Shown in pieces: positions 241 through 13,446 of a stretch of DNA of 27,864 bases. The notes below the pieces were generated by a model, which had not been told where the DNA came from, did no database searches, and worked only from the letters and a program-made list of their open reading frames with translations. A program made the translations under genes and the position numbers. Source of the stretch: a virus; IMG/VR virus record IMGVR_UViG_3300031554_000006, positions 1 through 27,864 of that record. One strand, 5' to 3'. How positions within the stretch are numbered: position 1 is the stretch's first letter; each line of letters opens with the position of its first letter.

Positions 241-1713
241 CTAACCAAAAATCCTGTGCATATCTGATAGGGTATCAGTTATGTCCCTTACTTTGTTCGA
301 AAGCTCGAGCATCATCTTGTGTGGGTTGAATAGGTCAGGATGGCTAATCTTGATGACCCGGGTTTGAATAACAATATCTAGCTCTTCGTCTATGACATTT
401 ACCATAGCCCCTAGCTGTAGTTCCTCGAACTCGAAGCCAGTAAAATCTGACAAGTCGATAGCAAACACGGCATAGGTAACCTTAGGCGTCTTCGCTTCAT
501 CGAGCAAAAGCCGGGCTGCGTCCAGCAATGCTGAAGCATTGTCTACGTCTTGGCTGGCCCGAACGCGACTGAATTGGCCATAAGTGCCAACGACATCCCA
601 GGCCATCAGATAATCAGCCCTCTGATAGTAAACCACGTAGGTAGCAGCCGGGTTATAATCGCCGATAGCGCACCGAAAGGTCCGTTCATCTGCTCCTTGG
701 TGGAAATCCGACGTAACTTCCAGTTCTGTTTTCCAATCAAACTCTTTAATTCGGATATACGCCGATGAGCCAGATTTGTTCTTAATTTTTAGTTTAGCTT
801 TCCACACCTTACGAGCTGAGAAGGTGTATTCCTTCCACACGTCGTTATCCGCATCGGAGAGGCTGGTGTTTACGACCAAATCCCAATCTTCCTCTCCGTA
901 GGTCGTGTCGGCAGTTACCCAAATCTGAACATCGACGCCAAGAGCGGAGATATTGGTAAGCATTACTCTTAATCCTATTGCTCCTATTTCACCGACTCCG
1001 CCTCCATTGGTAAGTTCAAGCGGAGCGCTCCATGCGCCCGCAGCGACATAGTCATAGGTAAACGTTCCAGTGTCTTCGTCGAAAGCTAGTGTTTCACCGA
1101 CCCATAGACTATCGATGTCAATAAACCAATCAGGACTTACCCAAACAATGCTGTCTTTTTCATAAATAAAAATGTGGGAAGGCAAAGCATTGCCTAGCCC
1201 AGTCCAATCCTTGTAGCAGGCGTATTTATCGGTGTCAGGAAGTGTAAGATAGCCGTAGCTGGCGTCGCTTGCCTTATCCACTTCCTCTCTTATCACAGTC
1301 AAGTCCGACAGCTTAGTTGACCCACTGGTAGGGAATAACCTGGTGCAAAGCTCTCCCCAATCTATCTCTCGAGTTATGCCGGTCAGGTTCTTTCGATACC
1401 GTATCTGCTGACCTTTGTCCTCACCTATATCGTTTAGCCAGTTTAGCTGGCGGTCATTATCAACATAGATATAACCGCCTACACTGTCGTGGAGTTGCAC
1501 TAAACCCCAGAGGATAGTCTCGTTTTCGACTGTGAGTGCTCTGCTCACTGTAGGTTCTATCGTGCCTACTGTGATGGGCGGACTGAGCCTCTGGAAGGCT
1601 AACAGAGCAGTTACAATAGCAGTTACTGTGCTATCGCTGGTCTCGTAGCTATCAACTATCTCATCAGCCAGCTGGCTTATCAATCCCTCTGCACTTATTG
1701 CTGTGGTTATCAT
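241..1713 (-). CDS. Tail hub / baseplate protein (Gp37- or Tal-like)
   Basis: This 490-residue virion protein should sit at the tail tip. The first 150 residues have the look of siphovirus hub proteins: an EGLISQLADE stretch, a predicted alpha/beta part, then a GGYIYVDNDRQLNWL segment followed by YRKNLTGITREIDW and LCTRLFPTSG. Residues about 220-330 look like an inserted beta-sandwich (jelly-roll) domain. The C-terminal part, rich in VNVIDEELDIVIQTRVIKI-type strands, resembles the last hub domain and ends in a short helix. Its ATG overlaps the stop of the upstream gene by four bases, so translation is probably coupled. The usual first hub domain appears to be at the end of that upstream protein. 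No peptidase motif is evident. Confidence 0.7.
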   Translation of the reverse strand: MITTAISAEGLISQLADEIVDSYETSDSTVTAIVTALLAFQRLSPPITVGTIEPTVSRALTVENETILWGLVQLHDSVGGYIYVDNDRQLNWLNDIGEDKGQQIRYRKNLTGITREIDWGELCTRLFPTSGSTKLSDLTVIREEVDKASDASYGYLTLPDTDKYACYKDWTGLGNALPSHIFIYEKDSIVWVSPDWFIDIDSLWVGETLAFDEDTGTFTYDYVAAGAWSAPLELTNGGGVGEIGAIGLRVMLTNISALGVDVQIWVTADTTYGEEDWDLVVNTSLSDADNDVWKEYTFSARKVWKAKLKIKNKSGSSAYIRIKEFDWKTELEVTSDFHQGADERTFRCAIGDYNPAATYVVYYQRADYLMAWDVVGTYGQFSRVRASQDVDNASALLDAARLLLDEAKTPKVTYAVFAIDLSDFTGFEFEELQLGAMVNVIDEELDIVIQTRVIKISHPDLFNPHKMMLELSNKVRDITDTLSDMHRIFG

Positions 1714-2978
1714 GTGCGTATATCCCTCTCCAGATGTAGAAGGAATTTTTTAACCACCTCTCCTGTCTCATAATCCCGGAGCCATATCTCCCCCAGTCGG
1801 CTAACGCCGCTTATTTTCTCCTCGTCAGCCGGGATAGAGAACTCCAGGAGAGGTGCTTCGTTAAGTGCCTCAGTAAATGAGATATTATAGGCGTTCTCTA
1901 AGATAGCCTCCAGATTGCCGCTGCTGTCGTGTAACTCCACGATATATCTGAGTCCGGACGGAGCCACCCATACGAACTTCACTACAGGCGTGCCGACGGC
2001 TTCCTCGGAAGGTATACCGGAGGGCAATAAAGTAAGTCCGAGACTCACCGCCGCCGAACCAAAGGCTTCCTCTGACTCAATACCGGTCAGAATGAGCGGC
2101 CCGGCAATAATCAAGACGCCGAAAGCCTCTCCTGACTCAGCGCCTGAAGGGAACACAACAAGGTTAAGCTGAGGAATACCCAAAGCCTCAGCCGTAGCTA
2201 TGCCAGCTGGGAACAACGTAAGGTTTAGCTTAGGTTCGCCCACAGCTTCCTCTGAGGCGATTCCAATAGCAGATATGGATATGACCATAGCAGGAGAACC
2301 TATGGCCTCTCCTGAAGATATACCGGTAAGAATAAGTGGACCGGCAACAATAGACGCACCGAAAGCCTCTAGGGAAGTTATACCGTCGGGGAATAAGGTA
2401 AACCCAAGACTTACTTTTGGTGTTCCAAACGCCTCTCCTGATGCTACGCCGGCAAGAGCCAGCAGGAAGTTTAGCTGAGGCGCACCGATAGCCTCCAAGG
2501 ACGCTATGGCTGACGGAGCCAAGTTGAGGTTGGCCTTGGGCGTTCCGAACGCTTCAGCACTAGCAATAGCACCGACGTCGCTTATGGTCAGCCCCTCAAA
2601 CAAACCAAAGTCAAAATCACGCACTCCCATGTAACCAAGCCCATCTTCACCTAGCCAGCAGATACGAGCTTGGGTTACTGTTTGAGTGCTGCCTAAGTCC
2701 TTCTCAGTATAGAAGTGACCTGACGGTATTGGGCCAGAATGTATGTTATGCCAATCACTGCCGTAATAGACATCTATGCTACAGTTAGGCGAGGCATCAT
2801 TGGTGGTGTATATCCCTATGCGAATCTTATTACAGCTAATGGAAGAATGAGTCCATATGAGATATTTGCCTGTTCCAGTAGCATCCCCATGATTAGAAAG
2901 CAAATCGTTAAAGGAATAGGTTTCATTTATCCAACCACTATTAGGGTCGCTCCACCCTGTAGGCGATGTCCAGCTCAT
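1710..2978 (-). CDS. Tail-tip protein with ten 20-22-residue EAFG repeats
   Basis: This 422-residue protein has three parts. Residues 1-130 look like a beta-sandwich carbohydrate-binding or F5/8-type fold. Residues 134-341 hold about ten tandem copies of a unit near GIxSxEAFGxPxxxLxLxP. Residues 342-422 (starting RYIVELHDSSG) resemble the first domain of Gp37-like siphovirus hub proteins. The next gene starts in the -1 frame with an ATGA overlap and seems to carry the rest of that hub. The layout suggests a receptor-facing arm attached to the hub. A ribosome site GGAAGG precedes the ATG. The fold statements are inference from sequence pattern; the repeats are directly visible. Confidence 0.65.
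   Translation of the reverse strand: MSWTSPTGWSDPNSGWINETYSFNDLLSNHGDATGTGKYLIWTHSSISCNKIRIGIYTTNDASPNCSIDVYYGSDWHNIHSGPIPSGHFYTEKDLGSTQTVTQARICWLGEDGLGYMGVRDFDFGLFEGLTISDVGAIASAEAFGTPKANLNLAPSAIASLEAIGAPQLNFLLALAGVASGEAFGTPKVSLGFTLFPDGITSLEAFGASIVAGPLILTGISSGEAIGSPAMVISISAIGIASEEAVGEPKLNLTLFPAGIATAEALGIPQLNLVVFPSGAESGEAFGVLIIAGPLILTGIESEEAFGSAAVSLGLTLLPSGIPSEEAVGTPVVKFVWVAPSGLRYIVELHDSSGNLEAILENAYNISFTEALNEAPLLEFSIPADEEKISGVSRLGEIWLRDYETGEVVKKFLLHLERDIRT
1956..2579 (-). repeat. Ten tandem protein-level repeats (EAFG motif)
   Basis: Ten diverged in-frame copies of 20-22 codons occupy residues 134-341 of the tail-tip protein. The core reads EAFG, EAIG, EAVG or EALG in every copy, preceded by a small-residue GIxS stretch and followed by a proline and alternating hydrophobic residues. 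Copies 4 and 8 share the segment IVAGPLILT / IIAGPLILT, which suggests that a four-copy block was itself duplicated. Confidence 0.9.
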
Positions 2979-2993
2979 CTATCGTCCTTCCTG

Positions 2994-3203
2994 CTAATCC
3001 AGCATAGGCTTGAGCTGTTGCTTCTCTTCAGGAGATAGGTCGTTAGCTATCCTGCGAAGTCTAAGCTCCCCGTGCTTCTCATCCATGAGCTGCGCGAGCT
3101 TTCTAGTTGTCTCCTTTAGCTCCGCTATCTGCTGACTGATTTTCCTCTTTTCAGCCTCTAGTTCTTCGTAGCTCATTAACCCATAATCCTTAGTCTTTAC
3201 CAT
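2994..3203 (-). CDS. Small coiled-coil protein of the tail region
   Basis: The 69-residue product is strongly charged. It has a heptad-like helix from about residue 10 to 50 (EELEAEKRKISQQIAELKE and onward), so it should form a coiled coil. The ATG follows AAGGAGGTAAAGGAAG and overlaps the end of the upstream gene by 14 bases. I do not recognise a family. Its place between Dit and the tail-tip protein suggests a structural or assembly role, but this rests on position only. Confidence 0.6.
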   Translation of the reverse strand: MVKTKDYGLMSYEELEAEKRKISQQIAELKETTRKLAQLMDEKHGELRLRRIANDLSPEEKQQLKPMLD

Positions 3204-3615
3204 CTTCCTTTACCTCCTTATTTGGCGGTGGATGTTGTATAAGTCTAGGTGAGCCTACATGCTCTGTAGACTCAATGCCCTTCATCCCTAAGCCTTCTTT
3301 TCTCAGCTTTGGGTCGTTGGCAGCTTGTTTTCGGGCCTCATCACGCATCCGAGGGTCAGTAGCTATGCCAATGGGGAAGCCATGGCCGAACAGAATAGCC
3401 TGGTCAACGATTATCTGCCCTGCCTTGACCTGCTCCTCTATCTTCCTTGCCTGTGCTATTACGCCCTTTGCGAAATAAATAGCAGCTTCCCAAGGCATTC
3501 GCTGCGTCTTTTCGCCCTCTATCTGCCAGATTACATCGGTCTTGTCGTGCCCAATTCTTACCGACTTCATTCTGGGGACGTGAATGTCAGGACTTTTATT
3601 ACCGTTGTCGCCCAT
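3190..3615 (-). CDS. Unknown tail-region protein
   Basis: The 141-residue protein is soluble and has no membrane segment. It has a beta-rich first third (SVRIGHDKTDVIWQIEG), a helical middle (EAAIYFAKGVIAQARKIEEQV) and a polar, lysine- and proline-rich tail that looks disordered. The start follows AAAGGAGTAAAAAA. It lies between the 135-residue structural protein and the coiled-coil protein, in a stretch that separates Dit from the hub. No function is recognised. Confidence 0.6.
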   Translation of the reverse strand: MGDNGNKSPDIHVPRMKSVRIGHDKTDVIWQIEGEKTQRMPWEAAIYFAKGVIAQARKIEEQVKAGQIIVDQAILFGHGFPIGIATDPRMRDEARKQAANDPKLRKEGLGMKGIESTEHVGSPRLIQHPPPNKEVKEDGKD

Positions 3616-3627
3616 TTTTTTACTCCT

Positions 3628-4035
3628 TTATAGCTTGAAGATTTTATTGGCGCCGGCATCCCACTGAACAGTAATGTCGCCTCCATTTGGAGTGCAAGGT
3701 AGACCAGTGGCCGTGTCAATACAACAGATTAGCCAGGACGTAGCATCAACGCCGCTATCCATGTAAATGACAATATACTCAAACTGGTCGCCTGCTACCG
3801 TAGGAACTACAACGTCGGTTGCATCCGCGACACCGAGCGTCGACGATTTGCCTGCAAAGTTACCACTCGTGGCTACGATGCCAGCATCTGTGAGGTCAAC
3901 CTGGTCTTCGTCCGTGTTTATATTTAGTGTGTAGTCGGCCGAGTCCATAAACGAGAGCACGATGTCATTGGCGCTCCAATCTATGTCCCCATCCAGGATA
4001 TGACCTCGTCCTAGTCCGTAAAGTGCGCTTGCCAT
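3628..4035 (-). CDS. Conserved phage structural protein, tail-associated
   Basis: The 135-residue product is acidic and beta-rich. It follows a pattern I associate with a widespread phage structural family: an N-terminal LYGLGRGHILDGDIDW, a central VATSGNFAGKS and GVADATDVV, then a conserved end with IDTATGLPCTPNGGDITV and a final NKIFKL. The exact role in virions is not known to me; such genes usually sit among tail or appendage genes, as here. The ATG follows GGAGGTGAGAC. Confidence 0.65.
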   Translation of the reverse strand: MASALYGLGRGHILDGDIDWSANDIVLSFMDSADYTLNINTDEDQVDLTDAGIVATSGNFAGKSSTLGVADATDVVVPTVAGDQFEYIVIYMDSGVDATSWLICCIDTATGLPCTPNGGDITVQWDAGANKIFKL

Positions 4036-4053
4036 GTCTCACCTCCGTCTTTT

Positions 4054-4806
4054 TTATAGGTATGCTTCTCTGTATTTTATGTTCAAAGTTCCAGTGTTGG
4101 AGAAGCCGGTAACCTTAATGTGATTGTCGCTTGCAGGTATCAATCTAGGGAACTGGCCGCTGACATTGGTCATATCAGCGGTGCCTTCCTTCTTGACTAT
4201 CCAAAGCCCCACGTCTATCTCCAATTCTTCGGTAATAGCCAGACTGCCTTGCCATTGAAGTTCTTCCCCGGTGTCTGTGTTCTCAACTTTGAGAGTGATG
4301 TCAGTCAGAGCTTCACCTGCCGTCAGGGTATAGACTGGCTTAACGTAGGCAGTCCCCCCCACGGCTTCGACTATAGTATCCGGGTCAGCGTCTATATTAT
4401 GGTCACTGCTGGTCTCGTTGGTCTTGTAAGCTAGAGGGTCATCAGCGATAAAGGCCAGTGAGCCACGGTAAGCGATAGGACTTACTAAGTTACCATCCAG
4501 ATGTTCGAACCTAGCCATCCAATACCGGTCGTCTTGAACATCAAATATGAGCCGTTTCGCTTCCTTCTGAGCAACGATGAGTTTAATGGCATCAAGATAG
4601 CTTTGAAGCTGTGCCGTGCTGCTACCTCGAACAAAGACATTGAGTGAAATTGATTTTGGAGGAGATATTGAACGAGCAGCCAAAGCGAGGTCTGGCAGCT
4701 GCACCGTCTCCGCCTTAAGAAAAGTAGCCAGAATAGGTGAGCTCCCCAGGACGGTTAGCCCATAGGTACTCAAATCGATACCGTTATATTCTAAGCTATT
4801 GCTCAT
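4054..4806 (-). CDS. Distal tail protein (Dit-like)
   Basis: The 250-residue protein sits directly downstream of the tape measure gene, the normal place for Dit. Dit forms the ring joining the tail tube to the tip. The N-terminal YNGIDLSTYGLTVLGSSP and the following strands, an internal helix (AQLQSYLDAIKLIVAQ) and an ARFEHL..SPIAYRGSLAFIADDP stretch match the usual Dit N-terminal domain. The second half is beta-rich and fits a galectin-like C-terminal domain. Its ATG overlaps the tape measure stop by four bases. The identification rests on both pattern and gene order. Confidence 0.78.
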   Translation of the reverse strand: MSNSLEYNGIDLSTYGLTVLGSSPILATFLKAETVQLPDLALAARSISPPKSISLNVFVRGSSTAQLQSYLDAIKLIVAQKEAKRLIFDVQDDRYWMARFEHLDGNLVSPIAYRGSLAFIADDPLAYKTNETSSDHNIDADPDTIVEAVGGTAYVKPVYTLTAGEALTDITLKVENTDTGEELQWQGSLAITEELEIDVGLWIVKKEGTADMTNVSGQFPRLIPASDNHIKVTGFSNTGTLNIKYREAYL

Positions 4807-8911: not shown

Positions 8912-9220
8912 TTAAACCTCTTTTACCATAATGATAGTCGTGTTATTTATCTCCTGGGGAGGCTCGACCGGCTTGTATATCTTGGCACCATGCAGAAAGC
9001 GGTTATCAGCCAGGGATATGTTAACACTGCCCCGGAAGATTATCTTATGGGTGACTTCACTCTGGAGCTGCTGGTAATGCGCCCTGGCCCGGGCATCGAG
9101 TGGGACCACTCTTGCATATTTCCACTGCACAGGCTTCCAGACTTCCGTCTCGCCGGTCGCCGTTTGAGTAGTGGTCCTCTCCTGCACCTGAACCCTGTTT
9201 TTTAGGAGATTGCTGAGCAT
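8912..9220 (-). CDS. Head closure protein (head-tail adaptor)
   Basis: The 102-residue protein fits the phage head-tail joining family (SPP1 gp16 / HK97 gp7 type): an N-terminal NRVQVQERTTTQTATGETE with WKPVQWKYARVVPLDARARAHYQQLQSEVTHKIIFR after it. The family plugs the connector after packaging. The ATG shares one base with the stop of the connector gene (TGATG), which implies coupled translation. Confidence 0.85.
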   Translation of the reverse strand: MLSNLLKNRVQVQERTTTQTATGETEVWKPVQWKYARVVPLDARARAHYQQLQSEVTHKIIFRGSVNISLADNRFLHGAKIYKPVEPPQEINNTTIIMVKEV

Positions 9221-10206
9221 CAGATAAAACTCACTTTCAGGGAGTTGAGCAGCCTCTTTGATGCCGGCGGCAGCTCCCCAGGCTCCCCATAATCCACCGA
9301 GCCTACGCCGGAGACATTCTCAGACTTCACCCCCATCCGGTTGCCGTACCAAGTGGCGACAGCTATTAAGATGGCAGTAACCGCATCCGGGGCCAAAGCC
9401 TGAGTCGCCGCCCGGGTAGCCGCGTAGCCGGCGGTATAGACGATAACATACTCATAATTCTCTAGCCATGAACCGTGCAACCTGCCGATATGGAGCCGCT
9501 CGGAGTAATCATCAGCCAGGTCAAGCTCAACCTCGTATCGGAAGATTATCTTGGCGCCATCAGACGGGGCTGAAGTAAAGGTTACCGTAGAGCCGCTCAA
9601 TATATAGTCCTCATCCACTGTCTGTAAAACCCCGTCAACATAGACAGTCAAGCTGCTGGACTTGGGGGTATTGCCGAGAGCGAATGCCGTTGTGGAGCCA
9701 TCCCCCGTTTTCCTTACGACTTTCTTATATGACACGGAGGTCACTAAGGCAACTGGCTGCCGGTAAAGCCTGAGAATGTCCAGACCATCACCATTGTGGG
9801 ACTCGGTAATAGAACGCTGGATAAATGCCCTGCCAGTATATACCTCGGCTTTCTTGGTGGCGGCGTTAATCAGGTTTTCCAGCAGGTTATCATCATAGCT
9901 CTCGAATGTATTATCACCGGCCGTGGTGTCATAGCTGGCAGTAATAGGAGCATCAGCAACCGGGGCAGTCGTGAAGGTGATAGTGGCCTCACTAATCGTG
10001 AAATCAGTATCCTCCACCTGGAGCACGCCGTCCACGTAGAGTTTAAGGCTGCCGCTAATCGGCGTATTATCCAGGGTAAACTCCACGGTCTCGCCATCCC
10101 CCAGACCCACATATTCAGCGGGCACATTAAGGCTGGTGGCAGCATCTACCCGGATGAAATTTTTGGCCTGTGCTAATGTAACCAGAGCTGTATCTGAAAG
10201 GGACAT
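9220..10206 (-). CDS. Head-tail connector (gp6-like) with two inserted beta domains
   Basis: I place the start at 10206: this ATG follows GGGAG and shares one base with the stop of the 41-codon gene upstream. A TTG at 10260 would add 18 residues without a good ribosome site. The 328-residue protein has a gp6-like core in pieces: residues 1-34 (LAQAKNFIRVD), 96-165 (LLENLINAATKKAEVYTGRAF and IQRSITESH) and 230-328 (VTAILIAVATWYGNR). Two related modules interrupt it at about 35-95 and 166-229, each with GDGxT, LxVYVDGVLQ, DxDF/DEDY, TFTxAP and a closing strand. Gp6-like proteins ring the portal and join it to the head closure protein. Confidence 0.8.
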   Translation of the reverse strand: MSLSDTALVTLAQAKNFIRVDAATSLNVPAEYVGLGDGETVEFTLDNTPISGSLKLYVDGVLQVEDTDFTISEATITFTTAPVADAPITASYDTTAGDNTFESYDDNLLENLINAATKKAEVYTGRAFIQRSITESHNGDGLDILRLYRQPVALVTSVSYKKVVRKTGDGSTTAFALGNTPKSSSLTVYVDGVLQTVDEDYILSGSTVTFTSAPSDGAKIIFRYEVELDLADDYSERLHIGRLHGSWLENYEYVIVYTAGYAATRAATQALAPDAVTAILIAVATWYGNRMGVKSENVSGVGSVDYGEPGELPPASKRLLNSLKVSFI

Positions 10207-10331
10207 CAGTTCATCTCCCGACTTAAGATTTTGCGTTCCTTCTCTTTGAAGACTGGACAATCATGGCAATCGCCAGCAAAAGAGCAAATCACCTTTTTAT
10301 AGGGGCATTTGGAGCCTACCGGCCTCTTCAT
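10206..10331 (-). CDS. Tiny four-cysteine protein between decoration and connector genes
   Basis: This 41-codon frame starts MKRPVGSKCPYKKVICSF and has cysteines at 9, 16, 22 and 25 plus a histidine at 23, so it may bind zinc. The second half is charged and helical (FKEKERKILSREMN). Its ATG overlaps the upstream stop by four bases (ATGA) and its stop shares a base with the connector ATG (TGATG). Such tight coupling on both sides, with purine-rich AAGAGAAAGAG before the start, argues for a real gene. Role unknown; it may help head completion or be a small regulatory protein. Confidence 0.7.
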   Translation of the reverse strand: MKRPVGSKCPYKKVICSFAGDCHDCPVFKEKERKILSREMN

Positions 10332-10576
10332 TTTCTCTTTCTCTTGCGGGCTGGTACCAGCTTTTTGCCTCCGGCTCTGGTCTTGGACTTAGCCACTTCT
10401 GCCTCTGGCTCAGCTGCCTTCGTCTCACTCGCACCATCTAAGCTCTTGTCCTGCATAGCCATCCCATGCCTCAGCCATAACTCGGCATCCTCACGGGGAG
10501 CATCCACCACATCACCAGGTTTATAGGTCGTATCCCGTTTCTGGAAATAAAAGGATTTAAGTATCCTGATTCTCAT
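10328..10576 (-). CDS. Small basic protein of the head module
   Basis: The chosen ATG at 10576 follows AAAGGAGGATTTT; a longer frame to 10684 lacks a ribosome site. The 82-residue product has a folded first half (MRIRILKSFYFQKRDTTYKPGDVVD, APREDAELWLRHGMA) of a type common beside phage capsid genes. The second half is alanine/glutamate-rich and then strongly basic, ending ARKRKRK. The fold of the first half may be a small SH3-like barrel. No established function; the basic tail could contact DNA or the capsid interior. Confidence 0.65.
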   Translation of the reverse strand: MRIRILKSFYFQKRDTTYKPGDVVDAPREDAELWLRHGMAMQDKSLDGASETKAAEPEAEVAKSKTRAGGKKLVPARKRKRK

Positions 10577-10683
10577 AAAATCCTCCTTTAATAGTCGGGG
10601 GGAGCCGCTGCGCCAAGGAGTAAGCGCTGACAACTCCCCCCTGGTTTCGGGGTCCCACCTTGCCCAAGGGTAGGCATTATTCA

Positions 10684-11064
10684 CTAGGCGGTGTAGGTCA
10701 TTACATCGCTGATAACTAACCGTCCATCGGGCATGACTAACACTAGATAAGCCTGCTTCGTGGTTACGATGGTAATAGTTACGTCGATGACTCCATCAGA
10801 CTCGCTAACCAGCCAGCCCGCTATGTCTGCCAGGGTTTCAACAAATAGTCCATTTGTTTTGATAACGAAATCAGACGTATCTGTACCATCAGCGCAAATT
10901 TCCGCACCGGCCGCGTCTTTCGCCAGATAGGCGAATACTGCCCGACTCTCGTTTAGGGCATTACCCGCACCATCCACAAGTTGGATACTTACATCAGGTG
11001 TTTCAGTAGTGCCGTCCGTCACAGTCATTTCTGCATCGACAGGGTCAAATGCTAATTTCCCCAT
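10684..11064 (-). CDS. Beta-rich protein next to major capsid, decoration candidate
   Basis: The 126-residue acidic protein has an Ig-like or beta-sandwich pattern: DVSIQLVDGAGNALNESRAV, a middle with FVIKTNGLFVETLADIAGWLVSES, then DVTITIVTTKQAYLVLVMPDGRLV. I recall similar proteins as common phage head-module products. It is encoded directly after the major capsid protein with a strong ribosome site (GGAGGTTAAACAAA), which fits a decoration or minor head protein made in large amounts. The decoration role is inference from position and fold pattern. Confidence 0.65.
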   Translation of the reverse strand: MGKLAFDPVDAEMTVTDGTTETPDVSIQLVDGAGNALNESRAVFAYLAKDAAGAEICADGTDTSDFVIKTNGLFVETLADIAGWLVSESDGVIDVTITIVTTKQAYLVLVMPDGRLVISDVMTYTA

Positions 11065-11092
11065 TTTGTTTAACCTCCGTTCGTTTATTCTT

Positions 11093-11119
11093 AGGGGGCG
11101 GGGATTTCACCCGCCCCCT
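11093..11119 (-). terminator. GC-rich hairpin after the major capsid gene, no U tract
   Basis: A perfect 10-bp inverted repeat (AGGGGGCGGG / CCCGCCCCCT, seven-base loop) sits in the gap between the capsid stop (11130) and the next ATG (11064). Neither strand has a U run after it, so it is a poor intrinsic terminator. It more likely protects the capsid mRNA end or makes polymerase pause. Confidence 0.6.
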
Positions 11120-11129
11120 ATTATTCAGG

Positions 11130-12344
11130 TCAGCCACTGTTGTTATAGACGCCATAGAAGGCAGCCGGGCGATAGACACCGCCGCCTACCCTCCTGTGCA
11201 CCTTGAAGCCCACCAGGCCAGCCTCAGCATAAAGCTCATCCAGCCGCTGGATGGCAATGCCAGCCCTATCCAGAATCATGTAGCCGTTCTTGAAGTTCCC
11301 GAAGATGACATTGATGCTGGTGACCGCATCGGCTGGGTAGTGCATGTCATTCTGGTTGATGATGGGCAAGCCGTCGAAGTTATTAGGTGCTCCAGCAATG
11401 AGAGACGGTTGCCACAGATATTGGCCATAAACCGGGCCGGCTTCAACTACTCTCAGCAATCTCAAAGCAAGCTCGGTTTTGCGGTTCATCAGCCAGGCGG
11501 CACCATTCAGGTACTGGGTGCCAAGAGAATATTCAGCAGTCAGCATACTATTGAGGTCTGCTGTATCCGCCACATCCCAGTTATCCTTGTAGCTGGCGAT
11601 GATAGTAGCATCCAGTGCCACGCCGTCAGGCTCGCTGTAGGTAGTGTGCCCGCGCCCGATAGCAAACCTCTTGGCTTCCTCATTACCTATGGCCACGGCA
11701 AAGGAATCGGCCAGCAAGGCTTGCAGGTTGGCATCGGTATCCTGGAGTTCATCCTCGCCGATTTTGGTCAAGCCATAGAGGTCCTCAACGTAGATGTTGG
11801 GCTTGGAAGGGGTCAGGGTGGACTCGGTAATATCGGTGCCAGTCTCCAGCTTGCCCCAGCCAACGGATACCTCTGTCAGACTGCGGATACCAACCTTATC
11901 GCGAGTGGTGCCGCGGACCCGGCAGTAATTACGCAGGGTATTAATCTGGGGTATCGCCCGCACAATCTCCGCCTCCAGTTCTTCAGGTACAAGGTAAAGC
12001 CCGGTGGTGTCTTCCACCAGCGCCTTCCGCTCTTGAGGCTCCAAAGCTGCTCGGCCATCGCGGATAAACTTATAGAAGGCAGCCTTGCGGGCTTTGGTTT
12101 CCTCGGATTCCACCTTCGCTTCGCCGGCGCCAGGTACAGCCTGCCGTTCGACCTTTGTGGCAAGGTCATCGAGCTGTGTCTTCTGCTCGTCCAGGGCAGT
12201 GCTCATTTTCTCCAGGATCGCCTTGTTCTCAGCACTGACCTCTCCCTGTTTTTTTGCCTCGGCCAGAACCTCATTATTCTTGGCCTTCATCTGCTCCCAG
12301 GTTTCCTCGATTTTCTCGGTGAGTTTCTTGATTTCCTCACTCAT
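11130..12344 (-). CDS. HK97-fold major capsid protein
   Basis: The 404-residue protein has a long N-terminal coiled coil (residues 1-70, rich in K and E) that fits the delta/scaffold domain removed by the prohead protease. A flexible link (VPGAGEAKVESEETKARK) then leads to the capsid fold. Typical HK97 features follow: TTGLYLVPEELEAEIVRAI, LRNYCRVRGTTRDKVGI, YVEDLYGLTKIGEDELQDTD, GAAWLMNRKTELALRLL and GLPIINQNDM, with a closing FKVHRRVGGGVYRPAAFYG. The ribosome site AGGAGGTAAAAACAAC is very strong. It lies immediately after the protease gene. Confidence 0.93.
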   Translation of the reverse strand: MSEEIKKLTEKIEETWEQMKAKNNEVLAEAKKQGEVSAENKAILEKMSTALDEQKTQLDDLATKVERQAVPGAGEAKVESEETKARKAAFYKFIRDGRAALEPQERKALVEDTTGLYLVPEELEAEIVRAIPQINTLRNYCRVRGTTRDKVGIRSLTEVSVGWGKLETGTDITESTLTPSKPNIYVEDLYGLTKIGEDELQDTDANLQALLADSFAVAIGNEEAKRFAIGRGHTTYSEPDGVALDATIIASYKDNWDVADTADLNSMLTAEYSLGTQYLNGAAWLMNRKTELALRLLRVVEAGPVYGQYLWQPSLIAGAPNNFDGLPIINQNDMHYPADAVTSINVIFGNFKNGYMILDRAGIAIQRLDELYAEAGLVGFKVHRRVGGGVYRPAAFYGVYNNSG

Positions 12345-12351
12345 GTTGTTT

Positions 12352-13326
12352 TTACCTCCTGTTTATTTTGTCGAGTAGTTCGTCAATGCGGGCTTCAGCC
12401 CGCTTGGTATCGAAGTGAGATAACTCGGCTTCGATGCCGTCCAGTTTCCCTTCAAGTTCTGCGGCTTCCACGTCATCCAGAGTGTCTTCTGACGGCTCCG
12501 ATATGCCTGGAAGTGCCTTGAAGGGGGACTCCATGTCCATCTTGTCGTAGTATTTGTTGAGGTGGGCGATTACCTTCGGCTTATCCTCAGCCGGTATATT
12601 CACGCCGCCCCGGCCGCCCTTCAGGACCACGGCGCAGGCGAAAATACCCCGGGGGATAGCAGTCAGCCGCCCGTTGATAACATCGGCAAAGCCCAGCTTA
12701 TAGCTTCCAAATAGCTCGGGGGCATCCTCGTCATACCAGAAGAAGGCCCGGCGATATTTATTCCAGTTCATATTGTCGGCCCCACCGGCCCAGGCTCTCA
12801 CTCTCTTCTCCACAGCCGAGCCATCCCACTCTTTATCTCGGTCAGCCAAGGGCAGGTCTTCAAAAGTGGTAACGCCTTTGACACCCAGAACCACCGCCTC
12901 GGGATTGGCAGCGAAGGTCACCGGCGACACGTCCCACAGCCTGACTTCCTTCAGGTGCCGGATACCCTTGTCCCATGCCTCCGAGATGGTGTCGTAGCCT
13001 ATAGATAGCTCGGTAATTACCTCATCCTTCATTAAAGCGAGGATTTCTCGAGCCCGCTGGACACCGAGGGAGAGTTTGCCCTTAATCTTTAGACCCTTCT
13101 CGTCCTCTGCCATCTCCAGGGGCTTGCCGATTGGCTCCATGACACTGTGGTTAAAGAGAATTTTCACCCGACCGCCGCTATCTTTAAGAGTCTTCTTGAA
13201 CGCTCCCTTGTCTATCACGTCCCCATAGCTGTCGGGGTGGTCGGCGAAGGTGGCAGCATAGCCTTCGAAAATACCGGTCTCCTCATCCAGCTCCTTGACC
13301 TCAAATGGTATCGTCTTCTTTTCCAT
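12352..13326 (-). CDS. Prohead protease (HK97/S78 type) with extra C-terminal domain
   Basis: The ATG at 13326 follows AGGAGGTTAATC; a longer frame upstream would read through the terminator hairpin. The first 150 of 324 residues are the HK97 protease: GIFEGYAATFADHPDSYGDVI, LFNHSVMEPIGKPL with His60, ITELSIGYDTIS with Ser108, then LWDVSPVTFAANPEA. It cuts the capsid delta domain during maturation. Residues 150-270 form a second domain (WDGSAVEKRVRAWAGG, FFWYDEDAPELFGSYKLGFADV, GGVNIPAEDKPKVIAHLNKYY) seen in some phage head proteins, of unknown role. A charged helix (285-324) closes the protein and may act in scaffolding. Confidence 0.9.
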   Translation of the reverse strand: MEKKTIPFEVKELDEETGIFEGYAATFADHPDSYGDVIDKGAFKKTLKDSGGRVKILFNHSVMEPIGKPLEMAEDEKGLKIKGKLSLGVQRAREILALMKDEVITELSIGYDTISEAWDKGIRHLKEVRLWDVSPVTFAANPEAVVLGVKGVTTFEDLPLADRDKEWDGSAVEKRVRAWAGGADNMNWNKYRRAFFWYDEDAPELFGSYKLGFADVINGRLTAIPRGIFACAVVLKGGRGGVNIPAEDKPKVIAHLNKYYDKMDMESPFKALPGISEPSEDTLDDVEAAELEGKLDGIEAELSHFDTKRAEARIDELLDKINRR

Positions 13327-13350
13327 GATTAACCTCCTGATTCTGGATAG

Positions 13351-13372
13351 TAAAAAGCCCGCCGGAGCGGGC
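13351..13372 (-). terminator. Intrinsic terminator upstream of the protease gene
   Basis: On the minus strand a 6-bp GC stem (GCCCGC / GCGGGC, loop TCCG) is followed by TTTTTA. It sits 25 bases before the prohead protease start, so it can act on transcripts coming from portal and metallopeptidase. Capsid genes downstream would need readthrough or their own promoter. Confidence 0.78.
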
Positions 13373-13400
13373 GGTGATTTCAAGTAATATATTAAAAACA

Positions 13401-13446
13401 ATATACTGCTGGTATATACTTCTGGTATATACTTCTGGTATATACC
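13401..13446. repeat. 13-bp tandem repeat, about 3.5 copies
   Basis: The plus strand shows units ATATACTGCTGGT, ATATACTTCTGGT and ATATACTTCTGGT, followed by a half unit ATATACC. The last junction gives the palindrome GGTATATACC. The array is AT-rich and lies 29 bases before the terminator hairpin that precedes the protease gene, in the only long gene-poor gap of the window. Confidence 0.9.

Follow-up and report, generated by a model that had tools for sequence, protein, structure and literature searches.

The locus analysed here raises the question of what a row of short, regularly spaced sequence units does in a phage tail protein, and why a single unit of the same type is located near the end of a small protein encoded beside it. 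The DNA under study, hereafter the window, comprises an entire viral record (27,864 bases). The array-bearing gene, identified in the list of open reading frames at positions 1710 to 2978 of the minus strand, encodes a protein of 422 amino acids that contains ten copies of the unit G-I-x-S-x-E-A-F-G, each 20 or 22 residues long, at positions 1959 to 2570 (minus strand). A position-weight scan placed the unit starts at residues 137, 157, 177, 199, 219, 239, 259, 279, 299 and 321 of the protein, with successive spacings of 20, 20, 22, 20, 20, 20, 20, 20 and 22 residues. When the region was shuffled 2000 times and scanned with the equal cut-off, 1985 of the shuffled sequences yielded no unit and 15 yielded one, which confirmed the ten-copy EAFG repeat that had been noticed in a sequence-only reading of this DNA. 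The array matched PHROG 13352, a family of minor tail proteins, over three stretches with an E-value of 1.4e-28, and no family matching the array was found in Pfam or NCBIfam. A PDB sequence search with a three-unit profile returned no chain at E 1, and the sole match of the whole protein in this type of search, a solute-binding protein with an E-value of 0.28, was not regarded as credible. For the array of one relative (L003), the resemblance to a leucine-rich-repeat effector model of NCBIfam (22.6 bits against a cut-off of 1243) was rejected as a matter of composition.

The DNA of the units was used to judge the age of the array. Units 4 (GITSLEAFGASIVAGPLILT) and 8 (GAESGEAFGVLIIAGPLILT) possess the common ending described for them earlier and are 70% identical at the amino acid level and 66% at the nucleotide level. 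The block duplication that had been deduced from this ending was not supported by the distance classes, as units positioned four apart, with a mean nucleotide identity of 55.7%, are no closer to each other than those positioned five (56.8%) or six (57.6%) apart, and a recent duplication involving units 4 and 8 within the window array was accordingly rejected. The DNA identity between units of the array ranges from 41 to 66%, the codons at the conserved residues are mixed, and the TRF program at a minimum score of 30 did not report the array as a DNA repeat. Judged from the mixed codons and the strongly diverged unit DNA, the window array is old and has been kept at the protein level, with no recent expansion. 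Elsewhere in the window, a tandem repeat of 13 bases (3.5 copies with 96% matches) is present at positions 13401 to 13445, where it adjoins the start of an open reading frame of 349 amino acids (12352 to 13401).

Relatives of the array are numerous. When viral contigs were scanned with an array alignment of four rows, 380 pattern matches were obtained, 272 of which encode relatives, and 80 of these 272 were retained for analysis. The scan of genome contigs detected 18 relatives among 282 matches, including Dehalococcoidia, Anaerolineae, Pseudonocardia and several Pseudomonadota bins, and mycobacteriophages account for 50 of the 52 named-phage records that match a long array. The distances between detected units, counted over a locus set that contained a few repeated contigs, were 20 residues in 905 cases, 21 in 94, 22 in 197 and 23 in 347. 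The same-length consensus of 651 distinct 20-residue units is characterized by isoleucine at position 2 (92%), serine or threonine at position 4 (97%), glutamate at position 6 (96%), phenylalanine at position 8 (78%) and glycine at position 9 (99%), with hydrophobic residues at positions 13 and 17 in 98% of the units. Very long arrays with like spacing were observed in the loci L033, L054, L060 and L064, the longest of them comprising 79 detected units (L033) in an open frame that extends past the end of the locus. A divergent array occupies positions 9123 to 11351 of locus L132, where the unit reads LGSSEAFFTH and the glycine of EAFG is replaced; the small proteins A and B of this phage, which are introduced below, are untagged. 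In the excerpts of the literature on unit strings, fibre repeats, copy number, Marvin and shared motifs that were available, including those of PMC3706429 and PMC6949934, the EAFG repeat is undescribed.

The protein carrying the array is composed of a head domain, the array and an N-terminal hub domain, in this order, with the hub being continued by the next gene. The C-terminal domain, designated D1 (residues 344 to 422; positions 1713 to 1949, minus strand), matched positions 14 to 54, and hence the start, of the profile phrog_22322 with an E-value of 5.9e-5, and it aligned with the domains of seven relatives with 31 to 54 identities over 76 to 78 aligned residues. The match of PF18994 to the same C-terminus (E 0.017; 15.7 bits) stayed below the cut-off of 23.6. 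The adjacent hub gene (positions 241 to 1713, minus strand) encodes a protein of 490 amino acids that matched PF06605, the prophage endopeptidase tail family, with 98.3 bits (cut-off 31.3; E 7.3e-28) and additionally later portions of phrog_22322. Both the ATGA overlap between the two genes and the D1-ended arm gene recur in five other loci (L013, L019, L006, L011 and L012), and the split hub is therefore not a sequencing error. The tape measure gene (phrog_991) and the Dit gene (phrog_33) are located upstream in the gene order tape measure, Dit, phrog_644, A, B, arm and hub. From A to hub, this arrangement is shared by a relative from a Dehalococcoidia bin (L097), which provides a lead only, namely to Dehalococcoidia, with respect to the host.

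The N-terminal head domain comprises residues 1 to about 136 (positions 2571 to 2978, minus strand), with strands predicted between residues 51 and 123 and AlphaFold pLDDT values of 73 to 82 for residues 51 to 110. The domain formed by arm residues 2 to 128 recurs in the hubs of L013 and L019 as well as in the hub of the window itself, where a second copy is inserted at positions 721 to 1146 of the minus strand (iterative profile search, E 5.6e-37); the insertion point in the former two hubs differs from that in the window hub. Assignments of the head to a cytokine-receptor, fibronectin-type or glycoside-hydrolase fold were rejected, as the matches were middling, with Z scores up to 8.5 and Foldseek E-values of 0.09 or worse, and a Pfam search with the head homologue L018 yielded no carbohydrate-binding family at E 0.1. 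In view of these fold matches, no carbohydrate-binding family is claimed for the head. Of the carbohydrate-binding-like domain linked to a hub-like domain that had been deduced from the sequence, an N-terminal beta-rich domain joined to a hub-type domain thus stands, and its carbohydrate-binding nature is not established.

Structure prediction, which had been suggested as a check, gave a divided answer for the array when run on single chains. A full-length AlphaFold run based on a ragged alignment of 25 proteins left the array unstructured, with a pLDDT of about 30 and one short strand only, which counts against the reading of this protein as an arm. An array-only run based on 30 in-register arrays produced a repeated beta model, a low-confidence beta-solenoid with a mean pLDDT of 59 and a pTM of 0.53, and the remaining four models of this run were worse (36 to 50). 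The model with a pLDDT of 59 was comparable to beta-helices, including those of phage tailspikes, with Z scores up to 14.3 over 201 to 202 residues and an rmsd of 2.8, as calculated by a tool that cautions against reading much into Z scores up to about 13 in the case of repeats. Foldseek searches with the low-confidence array-only model yielded a best E-value of 0.18, and the comparison with predicted viral proteins one of 0.06. The residue pattern of the units makes it likely that the array forms a beta-rich repeat, and the model makes a solenoid a possible fold. Solenoids of this kind rise by about 0.48 nm per coil, and an array of ten units, if folded in this way, would span about 5 nm and one of 22 units about 10 nm.

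The unstructured full-length model, along with the large differences in copy number among lineages, would also be consistent with a flexible linker without a defined fold, which is tolerated and not selected for its length, and in which the motif serves solubility or weak interaction. This linker would require neither so strictly conserved a motif (I 92%, S or T 97%, E 96%, G 99%), with its hydrophobic positions 2, 8, 13 and 17, nor a spacing that is mostly 20 or 22 to 23 residues, and we consider it improbable, if still the strongest of the alternatives.

Among the D1-bearing arms, the window protein contains 10 EAFG units, the two arm proteins of L013 contain 22 and 14, that of L019 contains 15 and that of L097 contains 8 or 9, depending on the cut-off. 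The arm genes of L013 are arranged in tandem (396 to 2510 and 2535 to 4622), both are D1-ended, and no similarity was detected between their heads. The two arrays of L013 (L013a and L013b) and that of L019 are collinear in alignment, with none of 500 shuffles being as good in each case; the unit-by-unit alignment of L013a with L013b includes two gaps of four units, and an AGP-type unit recurs every two to four units in L013 and L019. A corresponding unit-by-unit relationship of the window array with L013a, L013b and L019 was weak and was not accepted, since 18, 91 and 85 of 500 shuffles, respectively, were as good.

Near relatives presented a uniform picture. Equal unit counts were found in 39 of 40 array pairs, derived from 16 clusters, in which identity in the better flank reaches 90% or more, with the reservation that the flanks of 21 of the 40 pairs are fully identical, so that these pairs possibly represent one phage and are little informative. 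The fortieth pair differs by one unit that scores below the cut-off, and its open reading frames are of equal length (661 amino acids). In Marvinvirus, five units with identical spacing are present in all seven loci examined, the C-terminal parts of which fall into two groups that are about 61 to 63% identical, and eight units are present in four of four related M. abscessus and M. chelonae prophages. Two further prophage loci, L121 and L122, did not reach three units at the cut-off and were excluded from these counts. As far as seen in these sequences, copy number changes between lineages and not between strains. Lineages thus differ, with 8 to 22 units in the hub-linked arms, and the earlier proposal of variation between strains is not supported. 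A fast change of copy number via slippage was rejected as well, as the units are only 41 to 66% identical in DNA and near relatives have equal counts.

The domain D1 is common to eight arm proteins, of which five contain EAFG arrays and three contain different repeats. The latter three (L006, L011 and L012) retain D1, and in the slot of the array they have repeats of another kind that, as judged by eye, are about 17 to 22 residues long. The head of L006, which is attached to such a repeat, is 49% identical over 325 amino acids to the head of L028, which is attached to 20 EAFG units, and 35% identical to the head of L013b. Likewise, L012, whose arm is of another repeat, shares 37% identity over 406 amino acids in its head with L017 (12 EAFG units). 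The three relatives with other repeats in the slot and the similar heads on different arms indicate that the arms are exchangeable, and recombination would be the process exchanging arms, heads and bases. In the pair L158/L159, the arm DNA is 98 to 99% identical over 224 and 522 bases, the neighbouring genes are 81 to 86% identical, and the heads and C-terminal parts are without similarity; a mis-assembly at the identical stretches is possible in this pair, and L158 represents the same contig as L012. At positions 1901 to 5050 of L159, a head-type (adhesion-type) domain is inserted mid-arm; it shares 58% identity with the head of the L004 EAFG protein.

The domain order, the synteny and the exchange make it probable that the 422-amino-acid protein is a tail-tip arm. 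Such an arm would consist of an adhesion-type head, a beta-rich stalk made up of the ten EAFG units, and the first hub domain. The stalk would hold the head outside the tail tip, the number of units would set the reach of the arm, and the head may bind the host.

Beside the arm gene, the window encodes two small proteins, A with 141 amino acids (positions 3190 to 3615, minus strand) and B with 69 amino acids (2994 to 3203, minus strand; profile E 3.6e-5). Protein A, an open reading frame without a Pfam, NCBIfam or PHROG family, contains a single EAFG-type unit, GIESTEHVGSP, near its C-terminus (3247 to 3279, minus strand; score 12.9). Apart from the array-bearing frame, it is the sole open reading frame of at least 40 amino acids in the window that scores at least 8, and B is untagged in the window. 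A search of the named-phage collection with two members of family A, from L099 and the window, gave no match.

The initial A homologues came from array loci that were searched with the complete window protein, including its tag. The profile A6, which ends before the tag, detected 52 open reading frames with 27 distinct C-termini in the loci searched, and two further scans of viral contigs for A were performed with tag-free alignments, the queries of which came from array loci. Among 25 distinct complete A tails, 15 score at least 7 and 18 fit a simple motif, compared with fractions of 0.0000 and 0.0038 of shuffled tails; for the 12 tails reached by the tag-free scans alone, the respective numbers are 7 and 9. 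The unit was also present in 11 of 25 distinct complete B tails, for which the fair count is 5 of 19, as six seeds of the B profile had been picked for the tag. Protein B is coiled-coil-like by eye and unrelated to A, since no open reading frame was found by both profiles. A third pair of small proteins (L074/L098) likewise ends in a unit, L074 being weakly like phrog_1084. Among the distinct open reading frames with exactly one unit, 21 of 23 carry it within 40 amino acids of the C-terminus, where a uniform distribution leads to an expectation of 8.4. In the record of L042 (G031:C1:14425-14703), a family A homologue contains one in-frame TAG, which is consistent with either recoding or a broken gene.

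The association of A with arrays was examined in records that were reached through A alone, comprising 14 distinct viral records and one unseeded genome (L163). Five of the new viral records extend for 2 kb or more to either side of A, and each of them has an array nearby, namely EAFG arrays in L136, L140, L142 and L151/L152 and a divergent SEAFF-type array in L132/L133, where A is untagged. Four of the ten records with less than 2 kb on one side contain an array (L129, L134, L150 and L163). The six of the 15 new A records without an array (L124/L154, L127/L149, L131/L138, L141, L155 and L157) each end less than 2 kb downstream of A, and L127 and L129 possess an identical A tail and are possibly one phage. 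Family A is present in none of the three loci with other arms (L006, L011 and L012), and among 789 genomes of two classes it was found in three (two seeds and L163), always beside an array. Array records without family A make up 28 of 33 in a set that excluded most loci known to carry A, and a tagged small open reading frame is present on the strand of the array in 20 of 114 array loci and on the other strand in 2 (repeats included). Both of these counts speak against a docking function of the tags, as do the six new A records that lack an array, the use of a tagged query for the initial A homologues and the untagged B of the window.

Such a function, with the C-terminal tags docking small proteins on the arm, would account for the recurrence of one unit at the ends of unrelated neighbours, and it was weakened when the tags were recounted without the seed sequences; we put it forward tentatively and think it somewhat doubtful. 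The single units on A and B might pack onto the array, or onto the same partner, and this packing would place or hold the small proteins at the tail tip during assembly. The covariation of tag and array within a phage is marginal (p 0.03 and 0.05), with the own array being the best in 1 or 2 of 19 cases, so that docking, if real, would operate via the shared core and involve no private code. The EAFG unit might even represent a tail-tip assembly code, in which a row of units builds the arm and a single C-terminal copy docks A, B and others as an added coil or cap, but this wider proposal, likewise weakened by the recount, is rather unlikely. Taken together, an arm combined with docking is the explanation towards which we lean slightly.

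The lone units at the C-termini of unrelated small proteins and the strict short core with its few conserved residues might instead denote a short binding motif for another phage or host protein, which would be multivalent in the array and monovalent in the tags; a structural repeat would better explain the regular spacing and the length of the arrays, which reaches 79 detected units (L033), no partner protein is known, and this alternative appears quite improbable. It is hardly more plausible that the C-terminal units of A and B are functionless relics of fusions or splits with the array gene, as the position of A and B next to the arm gene and the missing unit in several A and B homologues might suggest, since relics would be expected to decay and the unit keeps its C-terminal place in A homologues located upstream or downstream of the array gene and is also found in the unrelated B and L074/L098 proteins.

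The reading of the array as a tail-tip arm with docked neighbours can be compared with known systems. PHROG 13352, which the window array matches, is listed as a family of the tail category, and this listing includes no repeat, fold, mechanism, hub fusion, arm exchange or C-terminal tags. The minor tail proteins of mycobacteriophages (Marvinvirus, Wildcatvirus and the prophages of M. abscessus and M. chelonae) contain five or eight EAFG units near the N-terminus and a large C-terminal part, whereas the window protein has an N-terminal head and the hub domain D1; moreover, no tagged small open reading frame was found in the mycobacteriophage loci examined, unlike in the window. In the tail of crAss-like phages, BACON tandem repeats are altered via duplication and inter-lineage transfer, as stated in the sections available of PMC6949934. 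BACON repeats and the EAFG array are both tandem repeats in phage tail proteins, but BACON is a named domain family, no BACON domain was detected in the window protein by Pfam at E 1, and the EAFG units have 20 to 22 residues. According to the excerpt of PMC4518210, the fungal HET-S/NWD2 system is based on an amyloid motif about 21 residues in length, which one protein contains repeatedly and on which the partner acts, and the role of the system is cell-death signalling through a beta-solenoid amyloid. In the window, two adjacent genes likewise have a short motif in common, which in one of them is located close to the C-terminus, and this likeness concerns the arrangement only, with no membership among the amyloid signalling pairs being claimed.

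Phage tail tips are mosaics, and what permits the exchange of head, stalk and base is rarely visible. The similar heads on stalks of different families, with the hub domain common beneath them, suggest that the stalk itself is an exchangeable part. If the assembly code were true, partners would be changeable by moving a tag of 20 residues. Stalk units that end small neighbours provide a testable idea for how the parts of a tail tip may find each other, and the tag could mark uncharacterised tail proteins of uncultured phages.
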